Origin: an uncultured Lachnospiraceae bacterium
Lineage (GTDB): Bacteria > Bacillota > Clostridia > Lachnospirales > Lachnospiraceae
Assembly (NCBI GenBank): GCA_947382625.1
Contig: CANDAG010000012.1
Coordinates: 39,451 to 103,450 of the forward strand
Length of the DNA: 64,000 nucleotides
Direction: 5' to 3'
The notes beneath the pieces were generated by a model that searched no databases, had not been told where the DNA came from, and saw nothing but the letters and a program-made list of their open reading frames with translations. The position numbers and the translations under genes were made by a program. Below are positions 6,081-60,300 of the stretch, piece after piece. Numbering within the stretch: the stretch's first letter is position 1; every line of letters begins with the position of its first letter.

Positions 6081-6119
6081 TTAATAAGCCGGCTCGCGAA
6101 GCGTGCTGTCCTTTGATCA
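6081..6119. repeat. Dispersed hairpin repeat, copy A (overlaps the fucI stop)
   Basis: Contains AATAAGCCGGCTCGCGAAGC and ends in TTTGATCA, matching the family at 29976, 34281, 34317, 42685 and 60262. The inner stem CGC-GAA-GCG is intact; the outer stem is weaker here. The fucI stop codon (6117-6119) is inside the unit. Confidence 0.75.
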
Positions 6120-7901
6120 TTTATACATAGGCCCATAAACGGCACAGGCCCTATAGTCTGCGGACTGGATATCCTCCATCCCAAAGGCTGACCATGCATG
6201 AGGCCGGAAAATCTTAGCCTCGTCTACATTATGCATGTTGACAGGAATACGGAGCATGGAAGCAAGAGTGATGATATCTGCCCCCACATGTCCATATACT
6301 GTCACGCCGTGATTTGCGCCCCAGTTCGCCATCACACTGTACACATCCCTGAAGGCGCCTTCTCCTGTAAGCCTGGGCACAAACCAGGTGGTGGGCCAGG
6401 AAGGATCCGTACGCTTGTCGATCACCTTGTGGATCTCATCCGGCAGATCTGCCGTATAGCCCTCTGCCAGCTGGATCACAGGGCCGATGCCGTCGATCAC
6501 GTTTACCCGGAGCATAGTTACCGGCATCTGCGCTTTGCAGCGGAAATGACTGGAAAATCCGCCGCCCCTGAAATACTCATAGTTAGCCCGGCACCAGTCG
6601 GTTGCCTGAAGGCAGGCGTCTATATCATCCTGTGTCATCTCCCAGAAGGGCTTCATGCACCCGTTTCCTTCCGCATTCCTGGCAGCGCCGCTTCCGTCTA
6701 AGGCTGTTGCCCCGGAATTGATCAGATGGATAAAGCCTCCCGCCGCGATACCATCAGGTCTCATGCCCGTTACACGCTCACAGGCCTCCGGACTCCAGTA
6801 GGTGCGCACATCGTGGAAGCAGGGTGCCGTATTGGTGACCAGGGTTCCCAGCATCATTGCCACACCATTTAAGGTATCGTTTTCTGTGGCAAAGGGAGTA
6901 GGTGCCTTAGGACCGTTCCAGTCAAAGGTGGATGCCATGATCGCTTCTGTAAAATCTGCATTGGGAAGCCAGTCTGTCCAGTTTCTCTGCCCCTGGAAGC
7001 CTCCTGCAACCGCATTTTTTCCCAGAGCTTCCTCATGCCAGCCCATTTCATCAAGCTTCGGGTTTCCGTACAGGATATCCCGGACGATCAGCGTCATCTT
7101 CGTGATAAACTCCCAGTCCTTATCCGGTGAAACCACCTTTGACCTGCGGATGATCTCCGGCAGATCCTTTCCCTCATTTAAGTCAAAGCCTTCCTTACAG
7201 TTTTCCTTTATCCAGCCATAAGCCTTTTCATATTCTTCCTGATCATAAATCCCAAGAGTGATCCGGCGCAGGATCTCCGTCATATCCACCCATTCTGCAC
7301 GAATACCGAAATATTTCTGGAACATGTCCGCATTGCAGTAGCTTCCGGCAATCCCCATAGCGATCCCGCCCAGGTTTACATAGGCCTTATTTCTCATCCA
7401 GCCTACCGTCACCGCTCCTCTTGCAAAAGCAATGATCTTCTCCGCCACATCTGTCGGTATTCTCTGATCTCCCATATCCTGTACATCTCGCCCGTAAATG
7501 GAAAAGGCAGGCAGACCCTTTTGGGCATAGGCTGCCATTACCGCTGCAAGGTAGACTGCTCCCGGTCTCTCTGTGCCGTTAAAGCCCCATACCGCCTTGA
7601 TGGTCCCTGGATCCATATCGAAGGTCTCTGAACCATAGCACCAGCAAGGGGTTACGCTCAAGGTTGCCACTACATTTTCTTTCGAAAACTGCTCCGCACA
7701 TTTAGCAGCCTCTGCGCCTCCTCCGATGGTGGAGTCACTGATCACACATTTCACTTTTGTTCCGTCCGGGTAGCGCAGACTGCCCTCGATCAGCTCTGCT
7801 GCCGCCTTCGCCATTCCCATAGTCTGTTCCTCAAGCCCTTCACGCACACCGCCCCAGCGCCCGTCGATCACAGGCCTGATCCCGATTTTTGGATATTGCA
7901 T
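6117..7901 (-). CDS. fucI: L-fucose isomerase
   Basis: A 594-residue protein, the usual family length, recognisable throughout: the N terminus [51 protein letters not shown], and the C-terminal [12 protein letters not shown] that holds the metal-binding histidine. The enzyme converts L-fucose to L-fuculose (and D-arabinose to D-ribulose) with Mn2+, in the cytosol. Start ATG follows GGAGGGAAAAAG. No fuculokinase, aldolase or permease is adjacent, so the rest of the pathway must be elsewhere. The divergent AraC regulator across a shared 183-bp region is the likely local controller. Confidence 0.96.
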
Positions 7902-7948
7902 CTTTTTCCCTCCAACTCTCCTTAGTCAAAATAACCAATTCTTATGCA

Positions 7949-7977
7949 TTGACAAACCTATTTTTGTATGTTATGTG
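7949..7977 (+). promoter_or_regulatory. Promoter of the AraC-family regulator
   Basis: TTGACA (7949-7954), a 17-bp spacer, and TATGTG (7972-7977) preceded by TG in the extended -10 position. It lies in the divergent fucI/araC region. Confidence 0.5.
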
Positions 7978-8084
7978 TTATTATATCTTATTTCTCTTTT
8001 TACTTCTTGGCTGATTATAGCGGAATACTAGGAGAATATTCACTTTCATGGACATCCAGCGTAACTATTGAATCAGAGGGACAT

Positions 8085-8936
8085 ATGTATTACAGCAGTC
8101 TTTATGAAAATAAAAAAAGGGGAACCTTTGATTTCCCTATAGAGCTTTATCAGGTTTCCGCCGCTTCTCCCCGGTATCAGATGCCCTTCCACTGGCACCT
8201 GGAATATGAACTGATCCTGATCCTTAGCGGGAGCTTTGGGCTTTCCCTGAACGGAAAGACCTTTCTTATGAATGCCGGCGACTGTGCATGGGTGGGCAGC
8301 GGCGTAGTCCATGGCGGCATCCCCGATGACTGCATTTATGATTGTGTTGTTTTTGATCTGGGAACCCTTTTGCATGATACGCCTCTTTGTGCCAGAAGCG
8401 CCGCCGAGTTTTTGTCCGACGAGACCGAATACACCGGCGTATTTCCAGCAGGCAGTGTTCAGGCCGGACTTTCCGGCCAGCTCATGACCGCCATGCGGGA
8501 TGAAAAAAAAGGATATGAATGGACCACCGTAGGTCTTATGTGGCAGCTCATGGGCAGCCTGATCGGCAAAGAAAAATCTGCCCCGGTCCTTTCCGTGAAC
8601 CGGGGTAAGATACTGAAGCTGAAAAATGTGCTTTCCTATATTAAAGATCATTATGAGAATCCTATCACCCTGGCAGAGCTTGCGGACCTGGCCGGAATGT
8701 CTCCTAAATATTTTTGCCGGGCTTTTTCCCACATGACAGGCAAAACTCCCATCGAATATCTCAATTATTACCGGATCGAGCAGGCCGGAGAGCAGATCCT
8801 CCTCACAGACCGTTCCATCACGGATATCGCCCTTGGTTGTGGCTTTAATGATATGAGCTACTTCTCCAGGACCTTCTCCAGATACAAGGGAGTGAGCCCT
8901 ACCGGTTACCGGAAACTGCAGGCCCAAAACGCCTGA
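8085..8936 (+). CDS. AraC-family transcriptional regulator with cupin sensor domain
   Basis: About 283 residues from the chosen start. The N-terminal half is a cupin-like sugar-binding domain (FHWHLEYELILILSG, then MNAGDCAWVGSGVVHG). The C-terminal half has the two AraC helix-turn-helix motifs (TLAELADLAGMSPKYFCRAF and ITDIALGCGFNDMSYFSRTF, ending GVSPTGYR). The ATG at 8085 follows AGAGGG; an in-frame ATG at 7968 would add 39 residues with no such site and would overlap the promoter. Divergent from fucI, so a fucose or deoxysugar response is the natural inference; the ligand is not shown by the sequence. Confidence 0.87.
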   Translation: MYYSSLYENKKRGTFDFPIELYQVSAASPRYQMPFHWHLEYELILILSGSFGLSLNGKTFLMNAGDCAWVGSGVVHGGIPDDCIYDCVVFDLGTLLHDTPLCARSAAEFLSDETEYTGVFPAGSVQAGLSGQLMTAMRDEKKGYEWTTVGLMWQLMGSLIGKEKSAPVLSVNRGKILKLKNVLSYIKDHYENPITLAELADLAGMSPKYFCRAFSHMTGKTPIEYLNYYRIEQAGEQILLTDRSITDIALGCGFNDMSYFSRTFSRYKGVSPTGYRKLQAQNA

Positions 8937-8941
8937 TGTCC

Positions 8942-13476: not shown

Positions 13477-13512
13477 ATCAGGGGAGCCCCTAAGGGCTCC
13501 CCTGATTTTTTA
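13477..13512 (+). terminator. Rho-independent terminator after the phosphoesterase
   Basis: ATCAGGGGAGCCC (13477-13489) pairs with GGGCTCCCCTGAT (13494-13506), loop CTAA, followed by TTTTTT. Confidence 0.92.
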
Positions 13513-13527
13513 GCATAAGGATAACTC

Positions 13528-14319
13528 TCAAAGCCTGTTATCCGTTATTTCCATACCTTCCTCAAGCTCCTCCAGAATATGAAGGATATCCCTGATGGAT
13601 CGTCCCTGCCTGAGCATTTCCTGCATTTTGCGCTCTATCTTAAGATAGCTGATCTTTTCCGGCACCAGTCCCTCCACTGCCCCGGGGAAAAACTCTCTGA
13701 TATTATCCACCATGATCTTCACAATATGCTGATTGAGGATTTCACCATAATGCTCTTCACACACCGCCGCCACCCGGTCGATCATTTCCTGAAAGCGATC
13801 TGTGGGCTGTACGGGATTTGTAACAGGATCTGTATCTTCCGCGGACACGCTGCTTTCCCATAGCAGCTTATCATAAGATAATATCCTGTAAGCGCTTTCC
13901 TTAAGCTCCGGATTATCCTTAAGCCGCAGCACCGGCATCAGCATGCCCGCAGTCTTTGCCAAATCTTTTCTTTTTTGATTCACATAGTCTGTCTTAAGCC
14001 CTTCTATCACACAGGGGATCAGCCCCTTGCCAAATTCCAGAAGCAGCGGCTCTGCAAACAGATTGCTTCTGATCTCCTGCTCCATAAGCATGTTATTGTT
14101 TTCCACCACTTTTCCATCCGTGATCCCAAGCAAAGTGTTCGCACTGATATCCAGGGTCCGACAGATTCCCTTTACAAGAGAGATATCCGGCAGCCCGTTT
14201 CCTCGCTCCCATTTACTCACTGCCTGGGGCGTTACGCCCAGCCGTGAAGCAAACTCCTCCTGAGTCATTTTCCGGTCCTGCCTGCAGCGGCAGATTGTTT
14301 CTCCAATGCTTTCCTTCAT
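13528..14319 (-). CDS. XRE-family HTH regulator with C-terminal effector region
   Basis: A 263-residue protein. The first 65 residues are a clear Cro/CI helix-turn-helix (TQEEFASRLGVTPQAVSKWE, then GLPDISLVKGICRTLDISAN). The rest, about 190 residues, is helical with no recognised domain and no membrane segment. Such regulators are common in Lachnospiraceae and often autoregulate. It is 120 bp downstream of the L-rhamnose mutarotase gene on the same strand, but no functional link is shown. Confidence 0.8.
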   Translation of the reverse strand: MKESIGETICRCRQDRKMTQEEFASRLGVTPQAVSKWERGNGLPDISLVKGICRTLDISANTLLGITDGKVVENNNMLMEQEIRSNLFAEPLLLEFGKGLIPCVIEGLKTDYVNQKRKDLAKTAGMLMPVLRLKDNPELKESAYRILSYDKLLWESSVSAEDTDPVTNPVQPTDRFQEMIDRVAAVCEEHYGEILNQHIVKIMVDNIREFFPGAVEGLVPEKISYLKIERKMQEMLRQGRSIRDILHILEELEEGMEITDNRL

Positions 14320-15099: not shown

Positions 15100-15684
15100 A
15101 TGAAGAAATTAGTTTTACTGGCCTTAGCAGCTACTCTGGTTTTTTCAGTGCCTGTTTTGGCTAAAGAAGTTGGCGCTCCTGTAGCAGTATATCTTGAGGA
15201 TTCCTCAAATGTAGGCGATCCTTCCATTACGATAGCTGCTATCGAGGAAGACAAATTAGTAGGCGAGTATATGAACAATGCTGTGACAGGTATCTGGGCA
15301 ATGGATAAGGTTGTTCCGGTTGCACAGGGTGACGGCGCTGTGATCGACGGCGTTGAGTCCAACCTTACCTTCTCTGTATTGAAGCCTGAGCTGAGACGTG
15401 TTTATACCGCCAAGGATGCAGCTGCCTCAATGGGCGGCACCGTGTTAAATGTTGTAAAGATCGGCATCCCCGCTGAGCTTAAGTATACAACAGCCATCGT
15501 TAACTTCTATACTCCTGGTATTGTAGACGGACAGAACGTTAAGGTATTCCAGTATTCCTATTCTGATGGCGATGATGATATCTGGACCGAGCTTAATGTA
15601 ACAGAAGTGAGGGAAGACCATGTACTGGTTGATATCCCCAATGACGGCGGCGTGATCGCTTTTATTGAAGTTCCTGCGGAATAA
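15100..15684 (+). CDS. Small secreted protein of unknown function
   Basis: A 194-residue protein with a textbook signal peptide (KK, then LVLLALAATLVFSVPVLA, likely cleaved before KEV). The mature part has no cysteine, no membrane anchor and no lipobox, and is rich in Val, Asp and Gly in a pattern that suggests beta strands. No family is recognised. It has its own candidate promoter, a GGGAG ribosome binding site and its own terminator, so it is a single-gene unit. It is probably released from the cell or kept in the wall by interactions not visible here. Confidence 0.75.
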   Translation: MKKLVLLALAATLVFSVPVLAKEVGAPVAVYLEDSSNVGDPSITIAAIEEDKLVGEYMNNAVTGIWAMDKVVPVAQGDGAVIDGVESNLTFSVLKPELRRVYTAKDAAASMGGTVLNVVKIGIPAELKYTTAIVNFYTPGIVDGQNVKVFQYSYSDGDDDIWTELNVTEVREDHVLVDIPNDGGVIAFIEVPAE

Positions 15685-15716
15685 ACAACGGACAACGTGC
15701 TTCGCGAATTGATCTT
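15683..15716. repeat. Dispersed hairpin repeat, copy B
   Basis: Begins AAACAACGGACAACGTGC, then TTCGCGAA, and ends TTGATC. It belongs to the same family as copies C, D, E and I. It starts at the stop codon of the secreted-protein gene. Confidence 0.65.
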
Positions 15717-15751
15717 ATATTAAACAAAATATTTTCTGTCAAGTGTGGTTT

Positions 15752-15784
15752 AAGCGTACTGCCGTTTTGGGCAGTACGCTTTTG
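15752..15784 (+). terminator. Rho-independent terminator after the secreted-protein gene
   Basis: AAGCGTACTGCC (15752-15763) pairs with GGCAGTACGCTT (15770-15781), followed by TTT on the plus strand. Confidence 0.85.
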
Positions 15785-15787
15785 TAT

Positions 15788-15826
15788 CATAAGGATGTCT
15801 GGCGAAGCCTGGCATCCGTTGATTAT
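15788..15826. repeat. Dispersed hairpin repeat, copy C
   Basis: ATAAGGATGTCTGGCGAAGC continuing to GGCATCCGTTGATT. Outer stem GGATG/CATCC, inner stem GGC-GAA-GCC. It is the reverse complement of copy D over about 37 bases. The stop codon of the zinc-ribbon gene (15823-15825) lies in its edge. Confidence 0.85.
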
Positions 15827-24820: not shown

Positions 24821-24861
24821 CAATCAACGGATGCCAGGCTTCGCCAGACATCCTTATGATA
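24821..24861. repeat. Dispersed hairpin repeat, copy D
   Basis: AATCAACGGATGCCAGGCTT, then CGCCAGACATCCTTATGA. It is the reverse complement of copy C, 9 kb away, over about 37 bases. It sits directly upstream of the IbrA-like gene. Confidence 0.85.
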
Positions 24862-29975: not shown

Positions 29976-30045
29976 ATCAAACGCCGTTGCGCTTTGCGTT
30001 CCGGCTTATTAACAAACGCTGTCGCGCTTCGCGTTCCAGCTTATT
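29976..30045. repeat. Dispersed hairpin repeats, tandem copies F1 and F2
   Basis: F1 (29976-30010) has GCCG/CGGC and F2 (30011-30045) has GCTG/CAGC as outer stem; both have the inner CGC-TTT/TTC-GCG stem and end GCTTATT. The two lie head to tail between recN and spoIVB. Confidence 0.85.
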
Positions 30046-30048: not shown

Positions 30049-30078
30049 GAAAAAAGGGGCATACACATAGTATGTCCC
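30049..30078 (-). terminator. Terminator after recN
   Basis: GGGGCATAC (30056-30064) pairs with GTATGTCCC (30070-30078), one G-U pair, five-base loop; seven T follow on the minus strand. It would separate spoIVB from the upstream operon. Confidence 0.8.
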
Positions 30079-30173
30079 TTTTAGTATGCGGAGAACCCGG
30101 ATTTTTAATTGCATAATTTTATTTTTTTACTTCCAATTTGTAACAGTTAAGCATACCCTCTGCAGCCCTCATC

Positions 30174-31871
30174 TCAACGCTGATCAGCGCTATCCTTCAC
30201 TCTGCAGGCTGTCTGCCTCATTTCCCTTGCATTGCCTAAAACTGCCTCGGTCAGCTCGCCGCTGCCAAGAAGCCTTGCCAGCTCCTTCAGGCTTTCCTCA
30301 TCGGAAAGCTCTCTGATATCCGTCACAGTCCTGTCCTTTTTCAACCCCTTTTCAATCAGAAAATGGGAATCGGCCATAGAAGCGATCTGTGCCAGATGGG
30401 TAATACAGATGATCTGATGATTTCTGGAAAGCCTTCCCAGCTTCTCCGAAACCTTCCATGCGGTTCTTCCGCTGATACCCGTATCAATCTCATCAAACAC
30501 CAGAGTATCTGTCTCATCCCTGTCTGCAAAAACGGTTTTAAAGGCCAGCATAATACGCGACAGCTCGCCACCGCTGGCAATCTGCCAGAGAGGCTTAAGG
30601 GCTTCGCCTGGATTGGTGGAGATCAAAAATTCCACCTTATCATGGCCCTCTGCCGAGAATTCCTCTTCCATGGGGGTAACCGAAACGCTAAATTCCACAT
30701 CCAGAAAATTCAGATCCGCCAGCGCCTCCTTGAGCTTATGAGTAAGAGGCTCTGCCGCCCCTTTCCGTAGCTTTGACAGATCTCTGCAAAGCTTTTGGAT
30801 CTCTTTTTCCCTCTGTTTTATTTTTTCCTGGAGCTGCTGTCTGTATTCTTCAAAATTTTCAAGTCTTAAAAGAGCCTGCTGCTTTTCTTCTTGATTTTTT
30901 AAAATATCCTCAATAGTACTTCCATATTTATCCTTCAAATGATTCAGAAGGTTCAGTCTCTCCTCCAAAAGAGCAAACTCCTCCCCGTCAAATTCAAGGC
31001 TGTCCTCGTACTGCGCCATAGCGCGGTTAAAATCATTGAGCAGATCGTCAATATCTGTAAGCTGTGCGATCAGCGGCATGCTTTCCTCGTCATAGGCGCT
31101 TAAGGTCTTCAGCTCACGCAGTGCATGTCCTATGATCGGTCCTGCACTTCCCTCTTCCTCATATCCCGTAAGCCCATGAACCCCATAGACCACTTCCTTC
31201 ATCCGTTTTGCGTTGACAAGCCGCCGGTATTTCCTTTCTACCTGCTCGTCCTCCTCCGGATCCAGCGCCGCAGCCTCGATCTCATCGATCTCAAATGCCA
31301 GAAGCTTTGCCTCCCGCTGGCGCATTGCTTCATCGGAATTCTGCTCCTCTAGCTCTTCCTTCCACTTTCTGTAATCCAGAAGCTTTTCTTTAAGAAGGGC
31401 CTTTATATCCTGTGCCTTGTTTCCCACATACTCATCCAGCATTTTTCTGGCGGCCTGCGGCTTTAGCAGCGACTGATGCTCATGCTGCCCGTACATATCC
31501 AAAAGATATCCGGAAAGACTTTTGAGCTCACCGGCACTGATGGTCTCTCCGTTTACCCGGCAGACGCTTCTTGTGGCCATGATCTTCCTCTGAAGGATCA
31601 AGGTTCCGTCCTCCTCTATGGGAATATCCAGTTCCCTGATCCTGGCGCACTGTTGCTCATTTAGCGAAAACATCAACTCAACCAGCGCATATTCAGCGCC
31701 GGAACGGATATAATCCTTACCTGCTTTTGCCCCTAAAGCCAGATTGATCGATCCGATGATAATGGATTTTCCTGCGCCGGTCTCCCCGGTAAGAATATTC
31801 ATCCCCGGCGAAAAGAACACCTCCTGCTCATCGATCAATGCCAGATTCTTCACATGTAAACTTTCAAGCAT
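30174..31871 (-). CDS. recN: DNA repair protein RecN
   Basis: A 565-residue SMC-like ATPase: Walker A (GETGAGKSIIIGSI) at the N terminus, a long coiled coil in the middle (LYDMYGQHEHQSLLKPQAAR to about 390), the ABC signature (ASGGELSRIMLAFK) and Walker B (TLVFDEIDTGISG) at the C terminus. RecN acts at double-strand breaks. Length is normal. Start ATG follows GAGAGG. It is downstream of argR in the conserved clostridial order and is followed by a terminator. Confidence 0.97.
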   Translation of the reverse strand: MLESLHVKNLALIDEQEVFFSPGMNILTGETGAGKSIIIGSINLALGAKAGKDYIRSGAEYALVELMFSLNEQQCARIRELDIPIEEDGTLILQRKIMATRSVCRVNGETISAGELKSLSGYLLDMYGQHEHQSLLKPQAARKMLDEYVGNKAQDIKALLKEKLLDYRKWKEELEEQNSDEAMRQREAKLLAFEIDEIEAAALDPEEDEQVERKYRRLVNAKRMKEVVYGVHGLTGYEEEGSAGPIIGHALRELKTLSAYDEESMPLIAQLTDIDDLLNDFNRAMAQYEDSLEFDGEEFALLEERLNLLNHLKDKYGSTIEDILKNQEEKQQALLRLENFEEYRQQLQEKIKQREKEIQKLCRDLSKLRKGAAEPLTHKLKEALADLNFLDVEFSVSVTPMEEEFSAEGHDKVEFLISTNPGEALKPLWQIASGGELSRIMLAFKTVFADRDETDTLVFDEIDTGISGRTAWKVSEKLGRLSRNHQIICITHLAQIASMADSHFLIEKGLKKDRTVTDIRELSDEESLKELARLLGSGELTEAVLGNAREMRQTACRVKDSADQR

Positions 31872-31975: not shown

Positions 31976-32428
31976 TCACTCCTCCAGCATATTACGTATC
32001 TTCTCCATGACATGCTCCGTATCCTCCACCGTTCTGACTGCCATCATGATGGTGTCATCACCTGCGATGGAACCCACGATCTCCTTCAGCTTCATGGCAT
32101 CTATAGCAGCCGCCACCGCCATAGCCATCCCGGAAACCGTTTTTACCACCAGGATATTCTGAGCCATATCCATGGAAACAAATCCGTCCTTCAGCACCCG
32201 GATATATTTGTCACTGAGATAGTGATCGCTCTGCACCAAAATCGTATATTTCTGTCTCCCATCTCCTATGGGGACCTTAGAGAGCTTAAGCTCCCTGATA
32301 TCTCTTGACACTGTGGCCTGGGTTACCGGGTAGCCATCCTCCTTGAGCCTCTCCGCCAGCTCCTCCTGGGTTTCAATCTCAAACTGCTCCACCAGTTCCT
32401 TGATCCTCTGATGTCTGCTCTTTTTCAT
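31976..32428 (-). CDS. argR: Arginine repressor ArgR
   Basis: A 150-residue protein, normal for the family. The N-terminal winged helix has EELAERLKEDGYPVTQATVS and RDIRELKLSKVP; the C-terminal hexamerisation domain has the arginine-binding GSIAGDDTIMMAVR. With arginine bound it represses arginine synthesis. The ATG at 32428 (GAGG upstream) replaces a longer frame starting at 32461. No ARG box was searched systematically. Confidence 0.96.
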   Translation of the reverse strand: MKKSRHQRIKELVEQFEIETQEELAERLKEDGYPVTQATVSRDIRELKLSKVPIGDGRQKYTILVQSDHYLSDKYIRVLKDGFVSMDMAQNILVVKTVSGMAMAVAAAIDAMKLKEIVGSIAGDDTIMMAVRTVEDTEHVMEKIRNMLEE

Positions 32429-32456
32429 AGTAGCCTCACTCCCAATTACTCTTATT

Positions 32457-32494
32457 AACATAAGGATGTCTCGCGAAGCGTGGCATCCGTTGTT
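32457..32494. repeat. Dispersed hairpin repeat, copy E
   Basis: ACATAAGGATGTCTCGCGAA followed by GCGTGGCATCCGTTGTT. Outer stem GGATG/CATCC, inner CGC-GAA-GCG: the clearest copy. It lies between nadK and argR. Confidence 0.88.
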
Positions 32495-32502: not shown

Positions 32503-33357
32503 CTAATCGCTCATTTTACGGTGGAGTACCTCCAAAAAGCTGACCTGGCTCAGCTTCACGATCCCGGTAGTCTTGCCGGATTTACGGATTTCAATCCTCT
32601 CGCCGGTGCGCAAAGCCTTCTTATGACATCCGTCAAAGATTGCTTCCACCTCTTGTATCTCCCCGTCTCTGCTGCTTTCTATCTCTACTGTGACCAGATC
32701 CTCGCAGGAAAGTATGATGCTTCTGCTCTGCATGGAATGGGGGCAGATTGGCGTAAGCACGATCAGCTCGGCTTTAGGCTCCACAATGGGTCCTCCCGCA
32801 GAGAGGCTGTAGCCGGTAGAACCGGTAGGTGTAGCCACTATGATCCCGTCACCGTGAAATCTATGAAGAAGCTGCCCATTCACATAAATGCTGAAATTGA
32901 TGATCTGCAGTGAGCCTTTCCTTGTGATGACAATGTCGTTTAATGCCCTTGCCTCATCCCCCGGGCCATCCGCCCCATGGCATCTGCCCAGGAGCATCAT
33001 CCGCTTTTCGATGGTAAATTCTTCACGGATCAGCTTTTGCAGCGCATTCTCAACCCCGTCTCTGTTCACCTCAGCCAGGAACCCCAGGGTTCCCATATTG
33101 ATCCCCAAAAAGGGAATATCCCTGTCTGCCAGATCCACAGCTGCCTGGAGAAGGGTTCCGTCCCCTCCCAGTACAATGATGCAGTCCACCTCAGGACTTA
33201 CCTGCTCCCGGTAGGTGTAACCGTCCCTGTCAGGCTTCTGCGTCCCTTCATCCACAAAGCACGTCATACCCAGCTTTTCAAGATACGCCTTAATAAATCC
33301 AGCTGTGGATAAAGCCCCCTCCCTGGTTGAGTTCGCAATCACATAAAAATACTTCAT
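32503..33357 (-). CDS. nadK: NAD kinase
   Basis: A 284-residue protein with the NAD kinase motifs GGDGTLLQAAVDLAD, LNDIVITRKG and VATPTGSTGYSLSAGGP. It phosphorylates NAD to NADP with ATP. Start ATG follows GGGAGGGAAC and overlaps the stop of tlyA (ATGA). Position between tlyA and argR is the conserved clostridial one. Confidence 0.97.
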   Translation of the reverse strand: MKYFYVIANSTREGALSTAGFIKAYLEKLGMTCFVDEGTQKPDRDGYTYREQVSPEVDCIIVLGGDGTLLQAAVDLADRDIPFLGINMGTLGFLAEVNRDGVENALQKLIREEFTIEKRMMLLGRCHGADGPGDEARALNDIVITRKGSLQIINFSIYVNGQLLHRFHGDGIIVATPTGSTGYSLSAGGPIVEPKAELIVLTPICPHSMQSRSIILSCEDLVTVEIESSRDGEIQEVEAIFDGCHKKALRTGERIEIRKSGKTTGIVKLSQVSFLEVLHRKMSD

Positions 33358-34253: not shown

Positions 34254-34280
34254 GATCAGTTTTCCATTTCTTTTTAAATT

Positions 34281-34351
34281 CAATAAGCTAACTCGCAAAG
34301 CGTGATAGCGTTTGATCAATAAGCTGGCCCGCGAAGCAGACAGCGTTTGAT
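34281..34351. repeat. Dispersed hairpin repeats, tandem copies G1 and G2
   Basis: G1 (34281-34316) has outer stem GCTA/TAGC with inner CGC-AAA-GCG; G2 (34317-34351) has GCTG/CAGC. Both begin CAATAAGCT and end GCGTTTGAT. G2 is translated: it encodes the last residues of Dxs (RCLLRGPAY). Confidence 0.88.
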
Positions 34352-36187
34352 CTTCTCCGCAATGGTTTCCGCATCAATGCCAATTTCCTGTTTCAGCTGT
34401 TCCACGTTGCCATGCTCCACATACTCATCCGGTATTGCAATCTGCAGAAAGCTCGCCTCTGTGTCTAATCCGTCCACCACGGCCCGGACCTTTTCTCCGT
34501 ATCCGCCGCTGGCAACATTTTCTTCCATGGATACCACCAGCCTGTGATTTTCGCAGGCCCATTTCACCGCTCTTTCATCAATGGGCTTCACAAATCTGGC
34601 ATTGATCACGCTGCACTTATATCCTGCCTGATTCAGCAGATCCTTCACCGCCTCTGCTGTTTTTACCATGCTTCCCACTGCCATAAGGCAGACCTCGCCT
34701 TCCGCATAGAGAAGCTCCGCTTTTCCCATTTCAATGGGACTGCGGTACTCCTTCAATCCTCCATAGGCTTCCCCTCTGGGATACCGGATTGCCACCGGTC
34801 CGTCAAATGCAATGGCAAATTTCATCATATCGGAAAGCTCCCATTTATTCTTCGGAGCCATAATGTGCATATTAGGAATAGATGATAAATAGGACAGATC
34901 AAAAATCCCCTGGTGAGTCTCGCCGTCGCTTCCCACCAGACCGGCCCTGTCAACGGCAAAGACTACCGGCAGATTCTGGATACATACATCATGAAGGATC
35001 TGGTCATAGGCTCTCTGTAAAAAGGAAGAATAAATAGCTACAACAGGCTTCAATCCTCCCGCGGAAAGCCCTGCCGCAAAGGTGACAGCATGCTCCTCCG
35101 CAATTCCCACATCAAAGAATCGATCCGGATACATATTTCTGAAGCGTTTCAGACCGGTTCCATCCGGCATGGCTGCCGTAATGGCCACAACCTTTTCATC
35201 TCTTGCCCCCAGCTTGGTCATAACCGTTGAAAAAATATCCGTATAGTTAGCCGTTGTCCGGGGTTTCGACGGAAGTCCCGTCTCGATATCAAAGGGTTCC
35301 GCCCCATGGAATCTTGCCGGATGACGCTCTGCCGGTGCAAACCCCTTGCCTTTCTCGGTGATCACATGGACGATCACTGCATTTCTGGTTCTTTTGGCCT
35401 CCTGGAACACCTTCAGCATTGCCGGAATATTATGACCGTCCACAGGTCCTAAATAGGTGATCCCCATATCCTCAAAAAACATTCCCGGCACCACCAGGTG
35501 CTTGAAGCTGCTTTTGGCCTTCCGGATCCCTTCTACCACCCTGTTGCCTCTCGGGATCTCCTTTAGTGTATTATATACCCCTTCCTTGATATCCAGATAA
35601 GTATTGGCTGTCCGGATATTATTCAGATATTTGGACATACCTCCTACATTTTCGGAAATGGACATGTTGTTGTCATTGAGTACAATGATAAAATTGGTTT
35701 CCAGCTTTGCCGCATTATTCAGGGCTTCATATGCCATACCACCTGTCAGGGAACCGTCTCCGATCACGGAAACTATGGTATTGTTCCCGCCCTGGATATC
35801 TCTTGCCTTCACAAGACCAAGCCCGGCTGAAATAGAAGTAGAGCTGTGCCCGGTGTCAAAGCAGTCGCAATCGCTTTCTTTGCGCTTGGGGAAACCGCTT
35901 AAGCCTCCCTGCTTACGCAGCTTCTCAAAGCCCTCCCGTCTGCCTGTGAGCAGCTTATGGGTATAGGACTGATGTCCTACATCCCAGATCAGCTTATCCT
36001 GGGGCAGATCCAGAAACAAATGGAGAGCCATGGTAAGCTCCACCGCTCCCAGATTAGACCCCAAATGGCCGCCGCTGCGGGATATTTTTTCAATCAAAAA
36101 GCTACGGATCTCCTGGGCAAGCTCCTGATAATCCGAAGGGTCTATATTCTTAATATCATTGGCACCTTTAATCGCATCAAGCAACAT
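34316..36187 (-). CDS. dxs: 1-deoxy-D-xylulose-5-phosphate synthase
   Basis: A 623-residue thiamine-diphosphate enzyme. Visible motifs: HLGSNLGAVELTMALH, DVGHQSYTHKLLTGR, the ThDP motif GDGSLTGGMAYEALNN with NDNNMSISENVGG, and FDVGIAEEHAVTFAAGL. It makes DXP from pyruvate and glyceraldehyde 3-phosphate, the first step of the MEP isoprenoid pathway and a source of thiamine and pyridoxal. It lies next to ispA. The last dozen residues are written by a dispersed hairpin repeat (34317-34351), so the native C terminus has been replaced or extended. Confidence 0.97.
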   Translation of the reverse strand: MLLDAIKGANDIKNIDPSDYQELAQEIRSFLIEKISRSGGHLGSNLGAVELTMALHLFLDLPQDKLIWDVGHQSYTHKLLTGRREGFEKLRKQGGLSGFPKRKESDCDCFDTGHSSTSISAGLGLVKARDIQGGNNTIVSVIGDGSLTGGMAYEALNNAAKLETNFIIVLNDNNMSISENVGGMSKYLNNIRTANTYLDIKEGVYNTLKEIPRGNRVVEGIRKAKSSFKHLVVPGMFFEDMGITYLGPVDGHNIPAMLKVFQEAKRTRNAVIVHVITEKGKGFAPAERHPARFHGAEPFDIETGLPSKPRTTANYTDIFSTVMTKLGARDEKVVAITAAMPDGTGLKRFRNMYPDRFFDVGIAEEHAVTFAAGLSAGGLKPVVAIYSSFLQRAYDQILHDVCIQNLPVVFAVDRAGLVGSDGETHQGIFDLSYLSSIPNMHIMAPKNKWELSDMMKFAIAFDGPVAIRYPRGEAYGGLKEYRSPIEMGKAELLYAEGEVCLMAVGSMVKTAEAVKDLLNQAGYKCSVINARFVKPIDERAVKWACENHRLVVSMEENVASGGYGEKVRAVVDGLDTEASFLQIAIPDEYVEHGNVEQLKQEIGIDAETIAEKIKRCLLRGPAY

Positions 36188-41039: not shown

Positions 41040-42632
41040 TTAGTTACGTCCAAATTCCGAAAGCTCTAATCCCTTGTTGCGATCCAGTGTCATCCCCACG
41101 CTCCACGCATTGATGAACAAAAGAAGAGGATTTCCTTTCAGATCCTTTATTTTTTTCATATCAGAGGTGCCTGTGAGCTTGTCCAGATCGATATCTTTAT
41201 TCTCAATCCACCTGATATGCTCATAAGGAAGATTTTCCAGTTTGATCTCCACGTTGTATTCGTTTTCGAGACGATATTTCAACACGTCGAACTGAAGCAC
41301 GCCAACCACCCCTACGATGATCTCTTCCATACCGGTATTGAATTCCTGAAAGATCTGGATAGCGCCCTCCTGGGCGATCTGTGTGATCCCTTTGACAAAC
41401 TGCTTTCTCTTCATGGTATCCATCTGCCTTACCCTGGCAAAATGCTCCGGGGCAAACGTAGGGATCCCTTCATAGCAGAACTGTTCTTTAGGCATGCACA
41501 GAGTATCTCCAATGGAAAACTGTCCCGGATCAAAAACGCCAATGATATCCCCGGCATAAGCCTCCTCCAATACCTTTCTTTCGCTTGCCATGATCTGTTG
41601 GGGCTGGGAAAGACGCATTACCTTCCCTCCCTGCACGTGTCTGACCTCCATGCTGGCCTCATATTTACCGGAGCAGATCCGCATAAATGCGATCCTGTCT
41701 CTGTGAGCCTTATTCATATTCGCCTGGATCTTGAACACGAAGGCCGAAAAATCATGTTCGGCAGGGGGAATAACCCCTATATCCGCTTTCCGCGGAAGCG
41801 GTGTCGTAGTCATTTTGAGAAAATGCTGCAAAAAGAATTCCACACCGAAGTTAGTAAGCGCCGACCCGAAAAAGACAGGGGTCAGATCACCAGCGCGGAC
41901 CAGCTCCAGATCGAACTCTGCGCTTGCCCCGTCTAAAAGCTCGATCTCATCCTTGAGAGTGTCCGCCGCTTCTTCCCCGATCACGGACAGGAGCTTCTCC
42001 TCATCGCTTACCGGGATTTCCACGCTTTCCCCCTCTTTGGTTCCCTTTTCTGTATCAGAGTAAGTGATCACACACTTTCGCTCCCTGTCATAGACCCCTT
42101 TAAATCTCTTTCCGGAGCCTATAGGCCAGTTCACCGGACAGGTGGCGATCCCCAGCTCCTTTTCAATCTCGTCTAAGAGCTCAAAGGTATCGTTGGCATC
42201 TCTGTCCATCTTGTTGATAAAAGTAAATATAGGGATCTTCCGCATAACACAGACCTTAAAGAGCTTACGGGTCTGAGCCTCCACCCCCTTAGAGGCATCG
42301 ATGACCATGACGGCAGAATCCGCCGCCATCAGGGTACGGTAGGTATCCTCAGAGAAATCCTGATGCCCCGGCGTATCCAGGATATTAATGCAGAAATTAT
42401 CATATTCAAACTGTAGTACCGATGAGGTGACAGAGATACCTCTCTCCTTTTCAATCTCCATCCAGTCGGATACGGCATGTCTCGCCGTTGCCTTCCCTTT
42501 TACACTTCCTGCCAGGTTAATGGCTCCTCCGTAGAGCAGGAACTTTTCTGTCAACGTGGTCTTCCCTGCATCAGGGTGGGATATGATGGCAAAGGTTCTT
42601 CTTCTGTTTATTTCATGTTCATAGCTTTTCAC
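41040..42632 (-). CDS. prfC: Peptide chain release factor 3
   Basis: A 530-residue translational GTPase: G1 (HPDAGKTTLTEKFLLYGGAI), switch I with RGISVTSSV, G3 (DTPGHQDFSEDTYRTL), G4 (INKMDRDANDT), then the RF3 C-terminal block FQEFNTGMEEIIVGVVGVLQ. It recycles RF1/RF2 from the ribosome after termination. Length matches the family. It has a single start and lies downstream of the spoIIIA operon. Confidence 0.97.
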   Translation of the reverse strand: MKSYEHEINRRRTFAIISHPDAGKTTLTEKFLLYGGAINLAGSVKGKATARHAVSDWMEIEKERGISVTSSVLQFEYDNFCINILDTPGHQDFSEDTYRTLMAADSAVMVIDASKGVEAQTRKLFKVCVMRKIPIFTFINKMDRDANDTFELLDEIEKELGIATCPVNWPIGSGKRFKGVYDRERKCVITYSDTEKGTKEGESVEIPVSDEEKLLSVIGEEAADTLKDEIELLDGASAEFDLELVRAGDLTPVFFGSALTNFGVEFFLQHFLKMTTTPLPRKADIGVIPPAEHDFSAFVFKIQANMNKAHRDRIAFMRICSGKYEASMEVRHVQGGKVMRLSQPQQIMASERKVLEEAYAGDIIGVFDPGQFSIGDTLCMPKEQFCYEGIPTFAPEHFARVRQMDTMKRKQFVKGITQIAQEGAIQIFQEFNTGMEEIIVGVVGVLQFDVLKYRLENEYNVEIKLENLPYEHIRWIENKDIDLDKLTGTSDMKKIKDLKGNPLLLFINAWSVGMTLDRNKGLELSEFGRN

Positions 42633-42684: not shown

Positions 42685-42723
42685 AATCAATAAGCCGGCT
42701 CGCGAAGCGTGGCGGCGTTTAAT
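42685..42723. repeat. Dispersed hairpin repeat, copy H
   Basis: AATCAATAAGCCGGCTCGCG, then AAGCGTGGCGGCGTTTAAT. Outer stem GCCG/CGGC, inner CGC-GAA-GCG. It lies in the 268-bp gap between spoIIIAH and prfC, which otherwise shows no gene. Confidence 0.85.
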
Positions 42724-46492: not shown

Positions 46493-46534
46493 ACTTATAC
46501 CCCTGCAATCCTTTCCCAAACAGTGCTTCGCTTT

Positions 46535-46729
46535 CTATAAGCTGAACAGATCCTGGATCATAATGAACAGATCATAGATATAGGGCAGGATCCAGGTCAA
46601 CACCAGGATCAGGCCTGCCAGACTGATCAGGAAGGCGTGCTCCTCCCGCCCGCTATGCTTTAAGATCTGTCCTAAAATGGTGATCAGTATCCCTACCGCC
46701 GCTATTTTAAAAATCAGGTTTATCTCCAT
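46535..46729 (-). CDS. spoIIIAC: Stage III sporulation protein AC
   Basis: A 64-residue protein of two membrane helices (IFKIAAVGILITILGQILKH and FLISLAGLILVLTWILPYIY) in the family layout. It is the smallest member of the SpoIIIA complex. Start ATG follows AAGGAGC. Confidence 0.95.
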   Translation of the reverse strand: MEINLIFKIAAVGILITILGQILKHSGREEHAFLISLAGLILVLTWILPYIYDLFIMIQDLFSL

Positions 46730-48334: not shown

Positions 48335-48411
48335 CTAAACAACGGATAACACGCCTTGCGAGTTATCCTTATGCCAAACAACGGACAGAACGCTCCGCGA
48401 ACTGTCCGTAT
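48335..48411. repeat. Dispersed hairpin repeats, tandem copies I1 and I2
   Basis: I1 (48335-48373) has outer stem GGATAAC/GTTATCC; I2 (48374-48411) has GGACAG/CTGTCC with inner CGC-TCC-GCG. Both start with AAACAACGGA. They lie between pnp and spoIIIAA. Confidence 0.85.
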
Positions 48412-48413: not shown

Positions 48414-48446
48414 AAAAAGGCGCCGCCCGATTCCGGGCAACGCCTT
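48414..48446 (-). terminator. Terminator after pnp
   Basis: AAGGCG plus CCGCCCG pairs with CGGGCAACGCCTT (to 48446); the minus strand continues with five T (48418-48414). Confidence 0.85.
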
Positions 48447-56030: not shown

Positions 56031-56098
56031 CCTTATTTTATCATCAGATATGCAAAGGTGTCAATTCTGACTCTCATGCATACCATAATAAATTTCAA

Positions 56099-57184: not shown

Positions 57185-57199
57185 AGCAAACCTCCATAG

Positions 57200-57236: not shown

Positions 57237-57249
57237 AACCAACAATGCC

Positions 57250-57278
57250 ATTATAACAAGTAACTCTATGGATGTCAA
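57250..57278 (-). promoter_or_regulatory. Consensus sigma-A promoter of the NlpC/P60 gene
   Basis: TTGACA (57278-57273), a 17-bp spacer and TATAAT (57255-57250) on the minus strand: a perfect match, about 65 bp upstream of the start codon. Confidence 0.85.
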
Positions 57279-57308
57279 ATATCTCCCTTTGATTTTTTCA
57301 GGAATTTT

Positions 57309-58250
57309 TTAGGAATTAGTCAAGTCCCCATTTTTTGTGTGAAAAATCCGCCCTTCGGCGATATCCGCCTCCATCTGCCTCTTTAAGCCGGACACGTCCG
57401 CAAATTTCTGTTCCGGACGTTTAAACTGTAACAATTCCGTCACAATTTCTCTTCCGTACATATCTCCCTCAAAGTCATAGAGATAGGTTTCCACACTGAC
57501 CGTATCCGTATCATTGACCGTGGGCTTTTGGCCGATATTGGTAATACCGGGATAACGGCCTTCCTCAGTACATACCATGGCATAATACACGCCTTTTGGC
57601 GGCAACAGCTTTTCCTTTGGCGGATAGAGATTCAGGGTGGGCATTCCAAGACGCCTGCCTAATTTTCGTCCCTCCTCCACTCTTCCCTCAAAGCTGTAAT
57701 ATCTGCCAAGCAGCTTTTGCACTGTTTCCATATGGCCTTTTTCCACTTCCTCCCGGACATAGGTGGAGCTGATCTCCCGGCTGCCTTCCCTCATTTTTTT
57801 GATGATCTGGAGCCGATAGCCATAACGCTCTGAGAGCCTCTCCAAAAGTCCCCGGTTTCCTTCTCCTCCGCGTCCAAAGGTAATGTCCTCCCCCGCCGCC
57901 AGGTAAGCTGTCCGCATCTGTGCTGCCAGATATTGTTTGACGAATTTTTCCGGCTCTGTAGCCGCCGTTTCCCGATTCAGAGGAAATTCGATCAGGATAT
58001 CAACCCCTGCTTCCTCAAAAAGCTTTCTCTTTTCCTGCCTGGTGGTGATCTCCTCCCCGGAGGACTGTCCAAAAAAGACCGCCGCTGAAGGATGGAAGGT
58101 AAAAACCACCGCCTTAAGCCCTTGCTCCTTTTGCTTCAGGATGCAGGAAAGCAGCTCTCGATGCCCTCTGTGGATCCCGTCAAACTTCCCGAGAGTAACA
58201 GCGGAGGGCTTCTCCAGCCAAAATTCTGTGGTATCGCAAATTATCTCCAT
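57309..58250 (-). CDS. ribF: Bifunctional riboflavin kinase/FAD synthetase
   Basis: About 313 residues. The N-terminal FAD synthetase domain has VTLGKFDGIHRGHRELL and AAGEDITFGRGGEG; the C-terminal flavokinase domain has GRRLGMPTLNLYPPKEKLLP, GVYYAM and GITNIGQKPTVND. It converts riboflavin to FMN and FAD. The ATG at 58250 follows GGAGGAAGCC; an ATG four codons earlier overlaps the truB stop (TAATG). Last gene of the infB-rbfA-nrnA-truB-ribF operon. Confidence 0.96.
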   Translation of the reverse strand: MEIICDTTEFWLEKPSAVTLGKFDGIHRGHRELLSCILKQKEQGLKAVVFTFHPSAAVFFGQSSGEEITTRQEKRKLFEEAGVDILIEFPLNRETAATEPEKFVKQYLAAQMRTAYLAAGEDITFGRGGEGNRGLLERLSERYGYRLQIIKKMREGSREISSTYVREEVEKGHMETVQKLLGRYYSFEGRVEEGRKLGRRLGMPTLNLYPPKEKLLPPKGVYYAMVCTEEGRYPGITNIGQKPTVNDTDTVSVETYLYDFEGDMYGREIVTELLQFKRPEQKFADVSGLKRQMEADIAEGRIFHTKNGDLTNS

Positions 58251-58261
58251 GGCTTCCTCCA

Positions 58262-59206
58262 TTACCCTTCCGGCAAAAACATTTTCACCGGCACAAGCAA
58301 TCCTCTCTCTCCATCATATCTGTAGACCCCATAAAAAACCCCTTCATGGCTGTACACCCTGAATTCCTGTCCCGGACCGGGCTTTTGTCTCTCCCTCAAA
58401 TCCTGCTCCGAATGAGGCTTCTGATTCCCGACAGCAAGGGGCCCTGGATTTAACTGATTTCCGTTTTTAAGTGCCTTGAAATCTGCCTCACGGGCCTGAA
58501 ACATCGGTAACTGCCCAAACATCTCTTCCACCGGGATCACAGCTTCCGAAAGCCTGCCTTCATCAGCCAGCTCCTGCAGCTTTTCCAGCGGATAAGAGTC
58601 CTCTATCTTAAATTCCCCTGCTCTGGTCCTTTTCAGGGATGTCATCACCCCGCCGCAGCCAAGAGCCTGTCCCATGTCATGGCACAGCGTCCGGATATAG
58701 GTTCCCTTAGAGCAGGAGACCCTGATGGTGTACTCAGGATGGTTCTCCTCCAGAAGGTCAATGGCATAAATAGTGACCGGTCTCGGCGCTCTCTCCACTT
58801 CCTTCCCTGCTCTTGCAAGATCGCACAGCTTTTTCCCATTTACCTTGAGAGCCGAGTACATGGGAGGAACCTGCATGATCTCCCCCGTAAAGGAAGCGAT
58901 CACCTTTTTAACCTCCCCGACAGATACAAAAACTTCCCTTTCCTCCAGCACCCTGCCGGAAATATCCTGGGTGTCGGTGACCAGCCCCAGACGAAAATCA
59001 GCAATATATTCCTTCTGTCTGTCCGTCAGCATATCGCAGAGCCTGGTGCCGTTTCCAAGACATACAGGAAGAACCCCTACCGCATCCGGGTCAAGGGTTC
59101 CTGTATGTCCGATCCTTTTCTGTTTACAAATACCGCGAAGCTTCGCCACCACATCATGAGATGTGAAGCCTGCTTCTTTATATACATTGATGATTCCGTG
59201 GTACAT
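58262..59206 (-). CDS. truB: tRNA pseudouridine(55) synthase TruB
   Basis: A 314-residue protein with the catalytic aspartate in GHTGTLDPDAVGVLPVCLG, then YIADFRLGLVTDTQDISG and VPPMYSALKVNGKKL, and a C-terminal PUA-like region. It isomerises U55 of tRNA. Start ATG follows GGAAGG. It ends one base into the ribF reading frame. The insertion between the catalytic and PUA parts (about 255-290, KPHSEQDLRERQKPGPGQ) is polar and may be a loop. Confidence 0.96.
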   Translation of the reverse strand: MYHGIINVYKEAGFTSHDVVAKLRGICKQKRIGHTGTLDPDAVGVLPVCLGNGTRLCDMLTDRQKEYIADFRLGLVTDTQDISGRVLEEREVFVSVGEVKKVIASFTGEIMQVPPMYSALKVNGKKLCDLARAGKEVERAPRPVTIYAIDLLEENHPEYTIRVSCSKGTYIRTLCHDMGQALGCGGVMTSLKRTRAGEFKIEDSYPLEKLQELADEGRLSEAVIPVEEMFGQLPMFQAREADFKALKNGNQLNPGPLAVGNQKPHSEQDLRERQKPGPGQEFRVYSHEGVFYGVYRYDGERGLLVPVKMFLPEG

Positions 59207-59229
59207 TCTCTTACCTTCCGTCCAAGCTG

Positions 59230-60186
59230 TTACTCTGTCTTTATCTGTACTGCGATCCGGCTGGAAAGATTGTTCACAATATCATGGAAGGTTCCCCGCA
59301 TGGTAGCTCCTGCCGCCCTTACATGACCGCCGCCGCCAAAGAACTCTGCAACCTTCGCCACATCCACCTGACCGTTAGAACGCAGGCTCACCTTATATTC
59401 CATCACATCCGTCTGGTACATAAAAATGGCGCATTCCACACCTTTGGTATTCTTAAGCTGACTCACGATCCCGTCAAGGTCATGAGGCTCCGCCCTGTAA
59501 AAATTCATGGTCTTTTTGTCCAGCATACTGACCACGCATTTGCCGTTCATGAACAGAATGCTCTCAAGCAGGGCTCTTCCCAGAATCTGATTTTGGATGT
59601 AGGTCTTCTCGTAAAAGGTTTCCTCGATCAGTCTGGAAAAATCAAGCCCATAGGAGATCAGCTCTGCCGCCGCCTTTAAGGTAGACGCTGCTGTATTGGA
59701 GTACTGAAAAACTCCTGTATCATGGATAATACCTATGTATAGAGCTCTGGCAATGTCCTCGTCCAGATCCGACTTATCCTCTATCAGATCATAGATCAGC
59801 TCGCTGGTGGAGCTTGCCCCGGGCACAATATGATTCAGATCCCCGCAGCCGCTGTTGCTCACATGATGATCGATATTGATCCTCTTTCCGGCTCCGTCAA
59901 AATATTTCTCACCTTCCCCCAAACGTTCCTTTGAGGTATCCAGTGCAAAAAACACGTCGAATTTTTCCACATCTGTGACAAAATCCGTATGTATCTCATC
60001 AATATCCTTTATGCAGGAAAAAATATCCGCAGGTTTTTCAAGCAGCACCTGCACCTTCGCGTCCGGACATACCTTTTTCAGATAAAGATAAAGCCCCATC
60101 ACAGACCCGACGCAGTCGCCATCAGGCCGTATATGACCGCTGATCCCAATGGTCAGCGCATCTTTTACTTCTTCGTATAATTTCAT
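59230..60186 (-). CDS. nrnA: DHH-family bifunctional oligoribonuclease/PAP phosphatase NrnA
   Basis: About 318 residues with the DHH motifs: GISGHIRPDGDCVGSVMGLY, FALDTSKERLG, RINIDHHVSNSG, IIHDTGVFQYSNT, and the DHHA1 block FGGGGHVRAAGA. It degrades short RNAs and dephosphorylates pAp with Mn2+. The ATG at 60186 follows GGAGGGTTGAAT. It lies between rbfA and truB as in other clostridia. Confidence 0.94.
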   Translation of the reverse strand: MKLYEEVKDALTIGISGHIRPDGDCVGSVMGLYLYLKKVCPDAKVQVLLEKPADIFSCIKDIDEIHTDFVTDVEKFDVFFALDTSKERLGEGEKYFDGAGKRINIDHHVSNSGCGDLNHIVPGASSTSELIYDLIEDKSDLDEDIARALYIGIIHDTGVFQYSNTAASTLKAAAELISYGLDFSRLIEETFYEKTYIQNQILGRALLESILFMNGKCVVSMLDKKTMNFYRAEPHDLDGIVSQLKNTKGVECAIFMYQTDVMEYKVSLRSNGQVDVAKVAEFFGGGGHVRAAGATMRGTFHDIVNNLSSRIAVQIKTE

Positions 60187-60261
60187 ATTCAACCCTCCAT
60201 GCATCTACTCGCTCCCAACTGCGCATCTTCCGATACGCATACTACTATAAAAATCATGAGC

Positions 60262-60300
60262 TGATCAAACGCTGCCTCGCTTAGCGTGACAGCTTATTGA
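60262..60300. repeat. Dispersed hairpin repeat, copy J
   Basis: TGATCAAACGCTGCCTCGCT, then TAGCGTGACAGCTTATTGA. Outer stem GCTG/CAGC, inner CGC-TTA-GCG. It lies between nrnA and rbfA. Confidence 0.85.

Follow-up and report, generated by a model that had tools for sequence, protein, structure and literature searches.

Mobile hairpin repeats behind intrinsic transcription terminators in a genus of Lachnospiraceae

Here we examine a family of hairpin repeats found in a 64,000-nucleotide (nt) stretch of contig CANDAG010000012.1 (assembly GCA_947382625.1), hereafter the window, from a Lachnospiraceae gut bacterium of the same genus as Parablautia intestinalis (genome of 4.18 Mb in 113 contigs, 88% complete). 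The copies are mobile, sites occupied here being empty in sister species, and the distinctive feature of the family is where they land, often at the T-tract of an intrinsic terminator. We are highly confident of mobility and terminator targeting taken together. As a whole, the family is probably best explained as miniature non-autonomous mobile elements, while for the step that would assign their movement to a Y1 transposase we see about even chances. We rate the family as a variant of the miniature elements of the single-strand kind; it acts like a repetitive extragenic palindrome (REP), lands like a group IIC intron and, by the tests made, belongs to neither. REP-like hairpins of miniature size and insertion behind terminators, the latter familiar from group IIC introns, are each known on their own and are combined in this family. 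Terminator landing seems to be a new means by which tiny parasitic DNAs reach sites where they do no harm.

The unit measures 38-39 nt and is composed of an edge triplet, ATAA, a GAA-closed hairpin with a conserved mismatch, GTT and a second edge triplet. It comes in two subtypes, type A (AATAAG-CYG.., four outer pairs; consensus AATAAGCYGRCT-CGC-GAA-GCG-TGRCRGCGTTTG) and type B (ATAAG-GAYG.., five outer pairs; consensus ATAAGGAYGNCT-CGC-GAA-GCG-TGNCRTCCGTTG). A scanner trained on these copies found, at a score of at least 15, 107 of them in 454,616 bases (21 stretches) of the genome and none in the same bases reversed; the mismatch adjoins the inner stem and has the form T.T in 80 of the 107. 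A preliminary description of the window had listed at least 13 copies. All 13 are confirmed in the window sequence, and a 14th, absent from that list, was found at 13515-13547 on the plus strand (Table 1; all coordinates given below are window positions). At a score of at least 15 the scanner matched 13 places in the window and none in 30 first-order Markov windows, whose best score was 10.6. The copy at 34317 has lost 1 nt from its inner stem, a deletion that makes it invisible to an ungapped scanner, and hence it lies outside the set of 107. A search of the window against Rfam gave no match at the gathering threshold and two chance-level matches at E≤1.

Mobility was evident from the comparison of filled and empty sites. 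Twenty-nine loci were read for the pair of copies at 34254-34350, and no element was present in any of the 26 relatives having both flanking genes. The final codons of dxs (34316-36187, minus strand) are replaced by the window copies, while the 26 relatives have element-free dxs ends. At site 29976 only G034 among ten relatives has a pair at this terminator, and the others lack any element. Two further genomes, G018 (UBA7199) and its sister species G007, are 81-90% identical over 13 aligned blocks; the scanner returned 14 matches in 110 kb of G018 versus 4 in 135 kb of G007 spanning the same region. Twenty further G018 loci were then compared, among which recent copies are over-represented because the loci were picked from the best-scoring matches; 18 could be matched in G007 (one of them, L319, weakly), where 14 sites are empty, three filled (L313, L315 and L324) and one ambiguous (L309). 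A clean junction reads GCAGCATTTTTTTCATGG when empty and GCAGCATTATTAAC-element-TTTTTCATGA when filled, a net gain of 39 nt or one period, and a two-copy site shows a net gain of 76 nt, again whole periods (both counted by hand). The cleanest sites show a T-rich target with AAC or ATC and no clear target duplication beyond the unit. In this respect, and in being a single hairpin, the unit may differ from a miniature inverted-repeat transposable element derived from a DDE transposon.

Gene context was read for the 107 copies with a simple purpose-made gene caller, which placed 56 in co-directional, 27 in convergent and 11 in divergent gaps, with 7 more at the ends of stretches and 6 within genes that it called. 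Where the flanking genes are co-directional, the ATAAG strand runs in the sense direction for 40 of 56 copies. In convergent gaps the GTT edge points toward the nearer gene in 24 of 27, often adjoining that gene's stop codon, likely because the ATAAG side often has the intrinsic terminator of the other gene. The preliminary description had placed all copies between genes or at a stop codon; this is true of most, the exceptions in the window being 34318-34349, which codes the final dxs codons, and the copy at 13515, which shares sequence with the 3' end of the gene called at 13528-14319.

Elements land in T-rich sequence, and in about half of the cases this directly follows, in one orientation, a strong terminator-like hairpin. 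First copies of arrays frequently stand some 7-12 nt after a terminator stem, inside its T-tract, and our reading of the flanks has the element starting immediately after the terminator T-tract. A single terminator-scoring function, with thresholds of 22 and 18, was applied to element ends and to random intergenic positions. In the bacterium's own genome a score of at least 22 was reached by 40 of 78 first-in-array copies, whereas the opposite end, read outward, gave 0 of 76 and random intergenic positions gave 21 of 772; at the threshold of 18 the corresponding counts were 47/78, 2/76 and 47/772, and 7 of the 11 first copies in the window alone reached it. The same preference was seen in 80 of at least 92 public stretches, independent of the scanner training, in which 56 of 92 first copies scored at least 22 (other end, 0/92; random positions, 47/4734). 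T content at positions -10 to -4 of first copies is 59-76%, and copies without a clear upstream hairpin still tend to sit after T-rich sequence. The 14 empty G007 sites described above have a terminator score of at least 18 within 15 nt in 11 cases and of at least 22 in 8, in a search of ±15 nt, which is laxer than scoring at a fixed position and for which there was no separate control.

The unit is itself a hairpin with a T-rich tail, and is thus like its own landing site. This build, together with the position behind terminators and the sense-strand bias, would also fit a host functional element under selection in place, whether a back-up terminator, a stabiliser of mRNA 3' ends or a protein-binding site. 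Such sites are, however, mostly not common to relatives (the dxs copies are absent in 26 of 26, and 14 of 18 sites are empty in the sister species), at the threshold applied 8 of the 36 genomes of the genus gave no match, and an apparently orthologous copy (L313/L333) has a decayed right arm. We therefore regard a host function as improbable, and most copies are probably without a job for the cell. Landing behind a terminator means that few genes are harmed, and it suggests why such repeats gather at gene ends without invoking an RNA role.

Hairpin structure was assessed on 25 aligned copies from the window and other contigs, from which a covariance model (R1) was also built. Standard pairs occupy 88.8% of 250 cells, compared with 74.8% after shuffling, and both sides have changed in 39 cells versus 15.1; the covariation score is 0.414 versus 0.199 shuffled and at most 0.162 when slid. 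Not one of 500 shuffles reached any of the three observed values. Two cruder counts showed no excess over shuffling, namely pairs with a double change (6 of 10; reached by 112 of 500) and further pair types (14; reached by 307 of 500). The compensating stem changes proposed in the preliminary description are thereby borne out. Its statement that the outer stems stay paired is upheld by the covariation and needs qualifying for three window copies, since the outer stem is partly broken at 6083 and mismatches occur in the copies at 13515 and 15686. On the ATAAG strand 72 G.T cells were counted against 21 A.C cells of 1,070 (the copies are related, so the cells are not independent), suggesting that this is the folding strand. 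The triplet before ATAA can pair with that after GTT (AAC/GTT, GAC/GTT, ATC/GAT, AGC/GCT). With wobble allowed, all three positions pair in 52 of 65 type B copies (shuffled mean 37.6; 0 of 1000 shuffles as high) and in 28 of 42 type A copies (shuffled mean 23.5; 1 of 1000).

Neighbouring copies are mostly arranged head to tail. Among 34 neighbour pairs less than 200 nt apart, 29 are on the same strand at a spacing of 35-39 nt, one is on the same strand at 88 nt and four are inverted at 72-140 nt. Of the 29 closely spaced pairs 21 share a subtype and two are identical. Array neighbours of the same type have a mean identity of 0.78, compared with 0.74 for random pairs, a value matched in 144 of 2000 samples. 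Simple tandem duplication is therefore not favoured as the origin of the arrays, and simple slippage fails to explain them, because adjoining copies usually differ in sequence.

The family is abundant in its own genome and narrowly distributed beyond it. Patterns allowing up to three mismatches gave 112 type B and 142 type A matches (at least 254 in total), reversed-pattern controls gave none, and no sampled copy matched both patterns. As the two patterns recover 79 of the 107 scanner copies, the genome total is perhaps near 340, a rough estimate given that the 21 stretches were selected for containing copies. R1 likewise revealed further copies, both in this genome, where 139 of 150 candidates scored matched at E≤0.01, and in relatives. 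With up to 106 candidates scored per genome, R1 matched 28 of 60 relatives' genomes (own genome included) at E≤0.001; all 28 are among the 36 genomes of the genus, and none of 24 genomes from other families of the order matched at this threshold. When one genome per genus was searched across the family (n=200; strict filters, 32 candidates scored in each), four, including the own genome, matched at E≤1e-6. An exact pattern found at least 92 stretches in public genomes, and 71 of the 80 listed are named Lachnospiraceae, Roseburia, Parablautia or Acetatifactor; among a set of viral contigs one exact pattern gave no match. The genus includes one genome of a cultured species, P. intestinalis D8-82 (G028). 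Copies are also present in records named Clostridiales AS10 (7) and AS21 (1), and in others labelled Anaerolineaceae (8), Gastranaerophilales (24) or bacterium only (15). The Anaerolineaceae label (L146/L354, MAG4) is doubtful and probably reflects a wrong bin or name, as the purC region closely resembles by eye that of Clostridiales AS10. One of the 80 listed loci, L190, labelled Alphaproteobacteria, was set aside as a probable chance match, since both the scanner and R1 came up empty there. With so exact and measurable a target and many recent insertions in gut bacteria, including a cultured species, the family makes it directly testable how REP-like repeats lacking a visible transposase spread.

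How the copies move was approached through candidate enzymes. No Y1 gene lies in the window, as the preliminary description had stated, and the sole PF01797 match of the genome is on another contig. That protein matches the IS200/IS605 insertion sequence (IS) model, the adjoining open reading frames look TnpB-like by eye, and no repeat was found within the 2.7 kb examined around it. PF01797 is present in 21 of 37 genus genomes. Eight genus Y1 proteins were compared with NCBIfam: seven score above the cut-off for IS200/IS605 (NF033573), with a weak match or none to the REP-associated tyrosine transposase (RAYT) model NF047646, and one (L112) matches nothing. Thirty of 34 listed Y1 loci of the genus were scanned for the repeats. 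At one of them (L100) copies adjoin the IS on a single side, and one other locus has a marginal repeat match undetected by the scanner.

At L100 (from 1214, minus strand) two head-to-tail elements come after a terminator, and an IS200-type left end in the same orientation follows them immediately, an arrangement implying that the element array acted as an IS200-type landing site. IS200-type elements of one group also lie behind a terminator, about 10 nt from its stem, at L095, L096, L102, L113 and L118. All five IS200-type elements with a GGGC-type left end (four found by motif, L118 picked by eye) have a terminator stem 9-11 nt away, with scores of 26.5-36.5. In seven IS200-type elements the right end has the form hairpin-NNTGATT, similar to the hairpin-GTTGATT of the ATC/GAT repeat subfamily, in a search that required TGATT and in which five of the seven ends were already known. 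Landing place, L100 and right foot suggest that IS200-type elements may act in trans. Two further propositions were not retained. Descent of the repeats from IS200 right ends is not claimed, the likeness being confined to the foot, and a supposed IS200 group starting with AATAA and a hairpin like that of type A was dropped when the motif proved to be internal to the IS in L100 and L102.

Our preferred explanation can then be outlined as follows. The ATAAG strand would fold and move as single-stranded DNA, and an IS200/IS605-type Y1 (HUH) transposase would act on it in trans, because one IS200-type group of the genus shares the terminator-relative landing place and a similar hairpin foot, and once adjoins an array. 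Each unit would supply another landing site, such that arrays would lengthen head to tail at fixed spacing. Trans-mobilisation by an IS200-type enzyme is the best explanation we have for the movement; it is unproven, and to our minds may just as well be wrong as right. That one IS200 group of the genus also favours terminators suggests a common targeting rule, and terminator targeting by IS200 elements may be interesting in its own right. A bolder version would make the family a distinct class of mobile hairpins that use transcription terminators as landing pads, choosing the T-tract site partly by edge-triplet pairing (AAC/GTT, ATC/GAT, AGC/GCT), remaking a terminator-like target at their own 3' end, growing arrays head to tail on which IS200 elements also land (L100), and, without a dedicated transposase, borrowing IS200-type enzymes or host functions. 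We offer this version tentatively and think it rather unlikely.

A number of observations weigh against this account. A strong upstream hairpin is lacking at about half of the first copies. A lagging-strand preference, which might be expected because of single-strand transposition, was not found: elements occur at 16 of 92 majority-strand and 4 of 19 minority-strand terminators (p 0.75; three of the 21 stretches were dropped for mixed gene strands). The edge-triplet excess is weak for type A copies outside arrays (reached by 21 of 1000 shuffles), the left flank of window site 34254 is not an exact match to a simple insertion, and junctions other than the cleanest are blurred by substitutions such that their exact ends are not fixed. 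With regard to the enzyme, no Y1 gene turned up in 7 of the 21 genomes of the genus in which at least 10 copies were counted, including G007, which is recorded as 100% complete, nor in G064, G065 and G070 (24, 15 and 25 copies); Y1 presence does not follow copy number in the genus (Fisher p 0.18), and R1 has no match to IS ends. Finally, where 15 Y1 left boundaries were drawn from alignments, a terminator scoring at least 22 lies within 20 nt at seven and not at the other eight (e.g. L098, L110, L101 and L103). A general terminator preference of Y1 elements is not supported by these counts, and the preference belongs to a single group. The L100 arrangement favours the Y1 step, and these eight boundaries speak against it.

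The preliminary description likened the repeats to REP elements or their mosaic assemblies (bacterial interspersed mosaic elements, BIMEs) moved by a Y1-type transposase. The likeness holds for the size of the hairpin (20-40 nt), the mostly intergenic position, the hundreds of copies, the conserved mismatch and mobility, with bulge and mobility as described for REPs in PMC8266576 and PMC3116915. According to the account of E. coli REPs in PMC8266576 the transposase needs a stem bulge, which fits the conserved mismatch of the present repeats. Membership of the class is another matter. REPs are characterized in PMC6006769 by a GT[AG]G foot and in general by a single, often REP-flanked tnpA-REP gene. 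The consensus feet of our hairpins are ATAA/GTTG on one strand and CAAC/TTAT on the other, with neither GT[AG]G nor CGTC at the edges. The REP unit inferred for Pseudomonas in PMC3116915 is an inverted pair (REPIN), whereas 29 of 34 neighbour pairs here are same-strand at 35-39 nt. In place of a repeat-flanked RAYT the 88%-complete genome has one IS200/IS605-type Y1 with no repeat in the 2.7 kb around it; no RAYT was recognised among the eight genus Y1 proteins classified, and the draft genomes of element-rich species suggest that RAYT is absent. Landing behind terminators is a further difference from REPs, REPINs and BIMEs as these three sources present them. In two distant genomes with 7 and 8 copies, G061 and G063, a Y1 protein matches the RAYT model at 68.9 and 71.2 bits, under the 80-bit cut-off, and no element was found in about 3.3 kb around these genes. 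REPs proper, mobilised by a dedicated RAYT, are thus a quite improbable explanation. In two distant genomes a RAYT-like gene lies between purC and a helix-turn-helix gene (L354, 1447-2085; L355, 1435-2040), and L354 reading frames in and beside it end in RHRTW or VPGT repeats, perhaps from the real REP family of that RAYT.

Other short repeats offer partial parallels. The CGTC REPs described in PMC3733652 are likewise abundant palindromes without an adjoining dedicated transposase; their head-to-tail dimers are given as negligible, whereas the present repeats lack the CGTC tag and stand mostly head to tail, and the word "terminator" is absent from the main text of that paper. Palindrome-associated transposable elements (PATEs) and other ends-only derivatives of IS200/IS605, as portrayed in PMC7290912, resemble our family in being non-autonomous, having a hairpin and supposedly being moved in trans; they make no target duplication, and our cleanest sites show no clear one. 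They differ in having two ends where we find one 38-39 nt hairpin. One IS200 group of the genus shares the landing site of the repeats. The pneumococcal SPRITE, BOX and RUP repeats are also short and clustered and one is terminator-like, but in the description given in PMC10969869 the repeat itself is terminator-like, while here a host terminator is the target. In the open-licence PubMed Central literature we recognised nothing as the present family or as a terminator-targeting REP.

The closest parallel for the landing site is that of group IIC introns. Bacterial-C group II introns insert directly 3' of rho-independent terminators in one orientation, as set out in PMC8919778, which is the same place and orientation as here. 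A retroelement-like process, in which the units are inserted behind terminators by the reverse transcriptase of a group IIC intron or by a related enzyme, would account for this position. An intron is nevertheless much longer than the unit, which is 38-39 nt of hairpin DNA, and the Rfam search recognised no family in the window. The reverse transcriptase domain RVT_1 was not matched in the bacterium's own genome or in the element-rich G001, G020, G023, G031 and G034, and its presence showed no co-occurrence with copy number (Fisher p 0.74). We judge this process quite improbable. Lower still we place enzyme-free spread, in which host polymerases would switch templates between hairpin-plus-T-tract sites: the unit is like its own target, and G020 and G031 carry at least 10 copies with no match to Y1 or RVT_1, but edge-triplet pairing and the conserved mismatch point toward specific recognition and, as noted, array neighbours usually differ (2 of 29 identical; 0.78 versus 0.74).

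Table 1. Repeat copies and adjoining terminator-like hairpins in the window
Feature	Position	Strand	Remarks
Intrinsic terminator-like hairpin (host), landing site of element 6083	6040..6076	+	score 38.5
Element, type A left arm and type B right arm, outer stem partly broken	6083..6115	+	convergent gap; terminator-like hairpin directly 5'
Intrinsic terminator-like hairpin (host), landing site of element 13515	13477..13506	+	score 42.5
Element type B, with mismatches	13515..13547	+	overlaps 3' end of minus-strand gene 13528-14319
Element type B, diverged, with mismatches	15686..15718	-	edge adjoins stop codon of gene 15100-15684
Intrinsic terminator-like hairpin (host)	15752..15781	+	score 36; kept in relative G012 without element
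Element type B, ATC/GAT edges	15789..15821	+	scanner
Element type B	24825..24857	-	core identical to 15789
Element type A, second in head-to-tail pair	29978..30010	-	scanner
Element type A, first in pair with 29978	30013..30045	-	directly 3' of terminator-like hairpin
Intrinsic terminator-like hairpin after SMC/RecF/RecN-domain gene 30174-31871	30054..30080	-	score 27.5; similar hairpin in several element-free relatives
Element type B	32460..32492	+	between arginine-repressor gene 31976-32461 and 32503-33357
Element type A, first in head-to-tail pair	34282..34314	+	site empty in 26/26 relatives
Element type A, 1-nt deletion	34318..34349	+	codes last codons of dxs (34316-36187, -)
Element type A	42689..42721	+	upstream of RF3 gene 41040-42632
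Element type B, second in head-to-tail pair	48340..48372	-	between PNPase and SpoIIIAA genes
Element type B, first in pair with 48340	48379..48411	-	scanner; behind hairpin 48418..48445
Intrinsic terminator-like hairpin after PNPase gene (host), landing site	48418..48445	-	score 36
Element type A, TAA loop, A.A replacing T.T mismatch	60266..60298	-	scanner

Two minor features of the window may be added. An inverted-repeat search pointed to a possible decayed copy at 46508-46549 (GTGCTTCGC...TATAAG), which lies under the scanner threshold. The minus-strand gene 13528-14319 has a predicted product of 263 amino acids that shows an odd combination of an N-terminal helix-turn-helix and a C-terminal FHIPEP match (63.6 bits, profile positions 449-536).

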